In this document: positions 52,712 through 53,301 of the stretch, in pieces | Layout: every line of letters starts with the position of its first letter | Position numbering within the stretch: the stretch's first letter is position 1 | DNA from: Nitrososphaeria archaeon | Lineage (GTDB): Archaea; Thermoproteota; Nitrososphaeria; Nitrososphaerales; JAAOZN01 | Assembly (NCBI GenBank): GCA_029775855.1 | Contig: JARVJZ010000005.1 | Location: 135,817 to 192,084 of the forward strand | Direction: 5' to 3' | Length of the DNA: 56,268 bases | Notes under the pieces: generated by a model | Told to the model about the DNA's origin: nothing | Seen by the model: the letters and a program-made list of their open reading frames with translations, nothing else | Databases searched by the model: none | Position numbers and translations under genes: made by a program

Positions 52712-53203
52712 CTACTTTACCATCCGCAACCTAATCGCCTTCACCAGCAGATAACCTATTATGTTTATTGATATTGTGGAGCCTATTAACACACCTACAA
52801 TAGGGATCTCCCACAGCGGTGAATCCAAAGGTATCTGGGCGAGCCAAGTTATATACCCACCTACTATAAGGCTGACTACAATATTGGCAGATGTGCACCC
52901 AAGTAGCCAAGAGCCTTTGAATCTTAGAGAAGCAACACGCATAGCAAGATACGATGCAACAAGATTAGCAACAGTTCCACCAACCACATCCACAACACCA
53001 AAAGGGCTACCCAATGCATTCGCCACCAAGTTCCCTAAAGTCACACCTACAACAACAGGAAAACCCCTAACGATAGATAGCGGAATAAGCGCATCAGCAA
53101 CCCTAACTTGAAAAACACCAAAGCTTATGGGAAGCAGCGCAAGAACACCAATAGCATAGAGCGCAGCAAAGAGCGATGCTTCCGCAAGACTTCTACTTTT
53201 CAC
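52712..53203 (-). CDS. QueT-like ECF/queuosine-precursor-type membrane transporter
   Basis: The 163-residue protein has about five or six TM helices. It opens SLAEASLFAALYAIGVLALL and has GVFQVRVADALIPLSIVRGFP and LGNLVANALGSPFGVVDVVGGTVAN, the pattern of the QueT (COG4708) substrate-binding components that import queuosine-type precursors. The archaeal counterpart would serve the archaeosine/7-deazaguanine pathway. I start it at GTG 53203 rather than GTG 53212, because GGAGGTG (53210-53216) overlaps the latter and stands 6 bases from the former. The leader before it is structured (see 53204-53275). The Fap7-like gene follows by 3 bases. Confidence 0.78.
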   Translation of the reverse strand: MKSRSLAEASLFAALYAIGVLALLPISFGVFQVRVADALIPLSIVRGFPVVVGVTLGNLVANALGSPFGVVDVVGGTVANLVASYLAMRVASLRFKGSWLLGCTSANIVVSLIVGGYITWLAQIPLDSPLWEIPIVGVLIGSTISINIIGYLLVKAIRLRMVK

Positions 53204-53275
53204 ATACACCACCTCCTTACCCGGGGTTTATTAGGCGGAACGGGTGGAGGTGCCCCCACTCACCCGCCTAAGCAG
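53204..53275 (-). ncRNA. Structured 5' leader of the queT-like gene, candidate riboswitch
   Basis: The TATA box at 53293-53301 (minus strand) places the transcript start near 53270-53275, about 70 bases before GTG 53203. The leader contains an 8-bp stem, TTAGGCGG (53271-53264) with CCGCCTAA (53238-53231), enclosing about 25 bases. These include CACCTCC (53252-53246), an exact 7-base complement of the downstream Shine-Dalgarno GGAGGTG (53216-53210). Pairing of the loop with the Shine-Dalgarno would give an H-type pseudoknot that hides the ribosome site, the mechanism of the preQ1-II riboswitch in front of bacterial queT genes. The primary sequence does not match that class. Confidence 0.55.
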
Positions 53276-53292
53276 AGTGGTTAAAGAAGCAT

Positions 53293-53301
53293 CTAAATAA
53301 G
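53293..53301 (-). promoter_or_regulatory. Promoter of the queT-like operon
   Basis: CTTATTTAG on the minus strand just after the sucD stop. A start site about 25-30 bases downstream leaves a leader of about 70 bases, unusual beside the many leaderless genes here. Confidence 0.5.

Follow-up and report, generated by a model that had tools for sequence, protein, structure and literature searches.

A conserved structured mRNA leader ahead of queT and other archaeal 7-deazaguanine genes, a candidate preQ0 riboswitch

The leader of the queT gene

The window, a stretch of 56,268 nucleotides of DNA from a Nitrososphaeria archaeon, carries a queT gene on its minus strand, preceded by the leader whose parts are collected in Table 1. 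The most likely queT start is the GTG at 53203, 6 nt past the Shine-Dalgarno sequence. An earlier note had proposed that this leader holds a stem, a loop complementary to the Shine-Dalgarno sequence and, further upstream, a TATA box. Inspection of the minus strand showed the 8-bp stem to be perfect (TTAGGCGG with CCGCCTAA) and CACCTCC to be the exact complement of GGAGGTG, each at the position claimed, and a TATA-like sequence lies ahead of the leader. The stem does enclose CACCTCC, as had been described, and it also encloses a second hairpin, P2, whose 3' strand is shared with the anti-Shine-Dalgarno sequence. The minimum-energy fold of the window leader uses P2.

Single-sequence folding energies were not significant for the window leader, whose isolated fold was unexceptional (z = -1.3), and were weak for the other leaders tested; folding energy was therefore left out of the evidence. 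Since the isolated fold is unremarkable, this one sequence proves little by itself. The case for the window leader rests on conservation, namely the recurrence of the motif in 27 families and its covarying pairs.

Table 1. Features of the queT leader in the window (positions of the whole stretch)
Feature	Positions	Strand	Basis
TATA-like box TTATTTAG	53293-53300	-	sequence; A+T peak across 113 leaders
Complete conserved motif, covariance model R1 match of 74.9 bits	53201-53272	-	covariance model R1
P1 5' strand UUAGGCGG	53264-53271	-	sequence; P1 covariation
Conserved joiner GUGA	53260-53263	-	GTGA/GTGG in 89 of 101 distinct motifs
P2 hairpin 5' strand GUGGGG, pseudoknot competitor	53254-53259	-	minimum-energy fold; P2 covariation
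P2 hairpin 3' strand CUCCAC, overlapping the anti-Shine-Dalgarno	53244-53249	-	P2 overlap statistics
Anti-Shine-Dalgarno CACCUCC, pseudoknot 5' strand	53246-53252	-	exact Shine-Dalgarno complement; co-evolution 0/5000
Near-invariant CCGUU, candidate ligand pocket (putative role)	53239-53243	-	conservation in 101 motifs
P1 3' strand CCGCCUAA	53231-53238	-	sequence; P1 covariation
Conserved single strand AAACCCCGG	53221-53229	-	conservation; AAACCCCAAAA instead in compact variant
Shine-Dalgarno GGAGGUG, pseudoknot 3' strand	53210-53216	-	sequence; co-evolution
queT (PF06177), predicted ECF S-component	52712-53203	-	PF06177, E = 7.6e-25; open reading frame

Distribution and gene context of the motif

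A first sample added 60 relatives to the window's own genome, making 61 genomes in all. QueT was present in 15 of them, and most of their QueT leaders carry the same element, in the order P1 (GCGG/CCGC), GUGA, a pyrimidine anti-Shine-Dalgarno loop, CCGUU or CCGAU, P1', 0-8 nt, AAACCCCGG and the Shine-Dalgarno sequence. Thirteen of these leaders were used to build a covariance model, R1, from RNA only and with no protein information; the window leader is one of the 13, so its own 74.9-bit score is high by construction. Scanned with R1, 400 genomes of the class yielded 61 strong places, spread over 57 genomes, and 300 genomes of the phylum yielded 56, spread over 54. Together these make 116 distinct strong places in 110 genomes and 27 families; the lowest accepted match scored 24.6 bits. 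The motif thus occurs in roughly one-sixth of the sampled phylum genomes. In two genomes of family f10 (G011 and G082), QueC and QueE homologues are present but the motif is not; the element is missing or replaced there. Elsewhere, two copies, the second degenerate, stand apparently in tandem ahead of one QueT gene (L077:874-940 and 1049-1142). Five pattern matches in viral contigs were dismissed as chance, only one of them matching the RNA model (10 bits, E = 0.1).

Across 113 upstream regions, A+T content rises to a peak (0.78-0.85) 23-27 nt ahead of the first motif position (53272 in the window). An archaeal TATA box lies at this distance from the transcription start; the motif is therefore the most likely place for transcription to begin and would form the beginning of the mRNA leader. 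For the window, the TATA-like peak predicts a start near 53270, ahead of the motif core.

Gene identities, assigned with Pfam and NCBIfam profiles, showed that 115 of the 116 strong places precede a gene that belongs, or probably belongs, to the 7-deazaguanine pathway; the remaining place is cut by a contig end. The first genes encode QueT (82), QueE (19), an unannotated membrane protein (8), ArcS-like DUF5591 proteins (4) and QueC (2). The matches to QueE (E about 1e-30) and to DUF5591 and archaeosine synthase alpha (E about 1e-14) pass the Pfam cut-offs but fall short of the strict equivalog ones of NCBIfam. QueC follows, on the same stretch, QueT in at least 41 cases (at least 41 queT-queC operons), QueE in at least 9 and the membrane family in at least 4. 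In one genome (G313) the motif stands ahead of both QueE and QueT. Apart from the place at the contig end, all places lacking a pathway gene were weak matches below 23 bits. Two loci are recorded here for their gene content: a second QueT gene in genome G002 (L016:1501-1938) has no motif and is followed by QueC, and at L144 (G015:C1:87431-88063) an open frame of 479 aa is homologous to QueC and has the size expected for an archaeosine-making GAT-QueC fusion.

The unannotated membrane proteins are about 245 aa long (L020:1547-2281, L031, L035, L038, L039, L040, L042 and L076). One member, tested against Pfam and NCBIfam, gave no match, and the predicted structure, with a pLDDT of 44, was too uncertain to use. 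With the motif in front and QueC next in at least four loci, this is a probable second family of 7-deazaguanine transporters, for which the motif serves as a marker. The presence of this candidate in the regulon, along with QueE, QueC and the ArcS-like genes, points to the same pathway that the earlier note had in mind when it suggested a 7-deazaguanine response.

Covariation of the stem, the loop and the Shine-Dalgarno sequence

Pairing between the loop and the Shine-Dalgarno sequence was used by neither the covariance model nor the motif parser. Among 101 distinct motifs, the loop nevertheless matched its own Shine-Dalgarno tail more closely than it did permuted ones (score 15.14 against 13.58, s.d. 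0.21; 0 of 5000 permutations), and this co-evolution persisted when each family was represented by one sequence (0 of 2000). Dissimilar solutions to the same pairing were found, among them ACAUCUC/GAGAUGU, ACCUCG/CGAGGU, GCUCCGU/ACGGAGC and UUUCCGAC/GUCGGAAA. In the leaders of family f9 and some of family f11, the pseudoknot is of 3-4 bp only. The co-evolution of loop and tail indicates that the loop of the stem is paired with the 3' tail, at the Shine-Dalgarno sequence, in the H-type arrangement of preQ1-I.

Compensatory changes were also identified in P1. Its second pair is GC in 74 motifs, AU in 15, UA in 4 and CG in 2 (0 of 5000 permutations), and the inner pair is GC in 95 and CG in 5. 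When the phylum set was aligned to the model, in an alignment itself fitted to the structure, seven of the eight P1 pairs changed on both sides, against 1.1 when shuffled and at most 2 when slid. The parser demanded that three of the four inner P1 pairs be complementary and so helped those four; the outer pair, the model alignment with its slid controls and the pseudoknot therefore carry the weight. The earlier note had made its reading depend on the stem and the CACCTCC/GGAGGTG pair being conserved in relatives, and both are, with compensatory changes. Its candidate, a loop that can hide the Shine-Dalgarno sequence before queT, gains support accordingly.

The same changes bear on the dyad as DNA. 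The TTAGGCGG/CCGCCTAA repeat is perfect and lies near the predicted transcription start, as would suit an operator for a transcription factor, placed downstream of the TATA box. However, the core that is conserved (CCGTT, AAACCCCGG) lacks symmetry, variation at the outer dyad positions is compensated, and the loop covaries with a Shine-Dalgarno sequence about 30 nt away, a link for which a DNA site has no use. An operator is thus very improbable.

P2, a hairpin of 3-6 bp, can be formed in most extended motifs, and its 3' strand overlaps the anti-Shine-Dalgarno sequence in 35 of 38 distinct cases. This overlap makes hairpin and pseudoknot mutually exclusive, as a switch requires. Covariation in P2 was modest, with 5 of 5000 permutations as good, and 65 of 2000 with one sequence per family.

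Conservation extends to unpaired bases. The CCG before P1' is near-invariant in the 101 distinct motifs, where the site reads CCGTT in 77, CCGAT in 21, CTGTT in 2 and CCGGT in 1. A simple stem with anti-Shine-Dalgarno pairing could in principle act as an RNA thermometer, or sequester the Shine-Dalgarno sequence constitutively with no ligand. Such conservation far exceeds the needs of a melting hairpin, and the restriction of the genes to one pathway is equally unexpected of it, so that this explanation is scarcely credible.

A compact form of about 50 nt was also found, with H-type architecture (GCGGGUGGUUU-pk-CCGUUCCGC-AUAUAAACCCCAAAA-pk) and with AAACCCCAAAA replacing AAACCCCGG. It serves ArcS-like, QueE and QueT genes, and its pseudoknot shows covariation, with a score reached by 0 of 500 shuffles and clearly above slid controls. 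A second covariance model, R2, built from the compact form, added five further loci, all ahead of QueT or ArcS-like genes. R2 also retrieves the extended form, which indicates that the two forms are one family.

Taken together, these data make it nearly certain that the motif is a conserved, widespread and structured regulatory mRNA leader of a 7-deazaguanine regulon. A structured, covarying and conserved leader ahead of genes of a single pathway is what is generally looked for in a riboswitch, and we regard the leader as probably one. Leaders controlled by proteins exist, and a regulatory protein could bind the conserved loops and so block or free the Shine-Dalgarno sequence. Against this, the first genes are transport and pathway genes only, with no regulator gene as a constant partner, and an aptamer is suggested both by the large number of unpaired positions that stay near-invariant across 27 families and by the compact H-type variant. 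A protein-read leader is therefore improbable.

Mechanism, ligand and comparison with known systems

The leader probably acts in cis, as a metabolite-sensing riboswitch that lowers translation of genes for 7-deazaguanine uptake and synthesis. Control would be exerted through the Shine-Dalgarno sequence and, most simply, would be OFF with ligand; we infer both this direction and the small-molecule nature of the effector. In the proposed mechanism, transcription would begin at about the motif and the RNA would form the P1 stem. When ligand is low, the loop would refold as the P2 hairpin, leaving the Shine-Dalgarno sequence free, and QueT would be made. Accumulated free preQ0 would bind a pocket formed by P1, GUGA, CCGUU and the A/C-rich tail, stabilising the pseudoknot between loop and Shine-Dalgarno sequence, and initiation would stop.

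The pathway offers several possible effectors: preQ0, 7-carboxy-7-deazaguanine (CDG), bacterial preQ1 taken up, and the archaeosine base. In the window's genome, which is 98% complete, the tRNA transglycosylase TGT is present (E = 2e-80), whereas QueC and QueE gave only weak, partial superfamily matches and DUF5591 and QueF none. An EcfT family member is encoded elsewhere in that genome (PF02361, E = 6e-27). With TGT present and QueC, QueE and QueF undetectable, the organism probably depends on 7-deazaguanine import. Archaeal TGT inserts preQ0 (PMC5485725). QueF, which makes preQ1, was absent from all 11 genomes checked, so preQ1 is less likely than preQ0. Import dependence, preQ0 insertion by TGT and the absence of QueF together make free preQ0 the likeliest ligand, a choice we hold with moderate confidence.

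The same riboswitch might instead respond to preQ1, CDG or the archaeosine base, which we consider rather unlikely. PreQ1 riboswitches are associated with QueT homologues in lactic-acid bacteria, and this favours another 7-deazaguanine effector; preQ1, however, is not made in the 11 genomes that lack QueF. CDG is the substrate of QueC, and queC comes after many of the queT genes that bear the motif. Together with two genomes that have QueC and no detected QueE (G265 and G012), this makes CDG import conceivable. Yet QueC is also missing from the window's genome, where imported CDG could not be converted to preQ0, while TGT uses preQ0 directly.

On balance, we favour a phylum-wide archaeal class of preQ0 riboswitches, in compact and extended forms, over uptake (QueT and the unannotated transporter-like family), synthesis (QueE and QueC) and an archaeosine-synthase-like gene. 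If this is true, archaea would possess a widespread riboswitch, the first to sense a precursor of archaeosine, and the leader would show how archaea unable to make preQ0 may control its import. Archaeal riboswitches are few, and the leader is a compact, easily made test RNA that leaves only a handful of candidate ligands to try. In 2014, riboswitch action in archaea in vivo was described as lacking direct experimental support (PMC4247193).

No Rfam family, preQ1-I, -II and -III included, was found in the window at the gathering threshold. The preQ1 models gave no match in the window leader at E ≤ 10, nor in 20 loci at E ≤ 5, in keeping with the earlier view that the sequence is neither preQ1-I nor preQ1-II; matches of the leader to Rfam at relaxed thresholds were chance only. 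In bacteria, preQ1-II and preQ1-III stand ahead of queT-type genes and hide the Shine-Dalgarno sequence in a pseudoknot. The archaeal leader differs from both (RF01054 and RF02680) in topology and conserved sequence. Its likening to preQ1-II as an H-type design was right about the loop/tail pseudoknot and imprecise about the class, since H-type is the preQ1-I topology.

Closer in architecture are the bacterial preQ1-I type III riboswitches, in which an H-type pseudoknot hides the Shine-Dalgarno sequence (PMC10622847). The archaeal leader shares with them the H-type pseudoknot, a short GC stem, a pyrimidine-rich loop pairing to the Shine-Dalgarno sequence, an A-rich 3' tail and the 7-deazaguanine pathway. 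It differs in its longer GUGA...CCGUU loops, a CCCCGG element, the extra P2 hairpin and the lack of QueF in the archaeal genomes checked. A conserved loop C is the residue by which preQ1-I binds preQ1; the near-invariant CCG ahead of P1' is what the archaeal leader shows in this respect.

Among openly licensed papers, no description of the motif was found. The nearest prior report is sRk28, a 70-nt Thermococcales RNA with a possible pseudoknot and, in Pyrococcus abyssi, a neighbouring QueC-like ATPase gene, which was likened to preQ1 riboswitches (PMC3124441). Compared by description only, it may be a relative of the leader: both are archaeal, of about 70 nt, with a predicted pseudoknot and a QueC link. 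In contrast to the leader, sRk28 was reported from Thermococcales only, is an orphan transcript in Thermococcus kodakarensis (PMC4247193) and has no TATA upstream in P. abyssi (PMC3124441, PMC4247193). Unless sRk28 is the same RNA, the leader would represent a new class within a known kind of RNA. Should its aptamer be independent of preQ1-I, it would be a further convergent case of a pseudoknot that hides the Shine-Dalgarno sequence for one ligand family.
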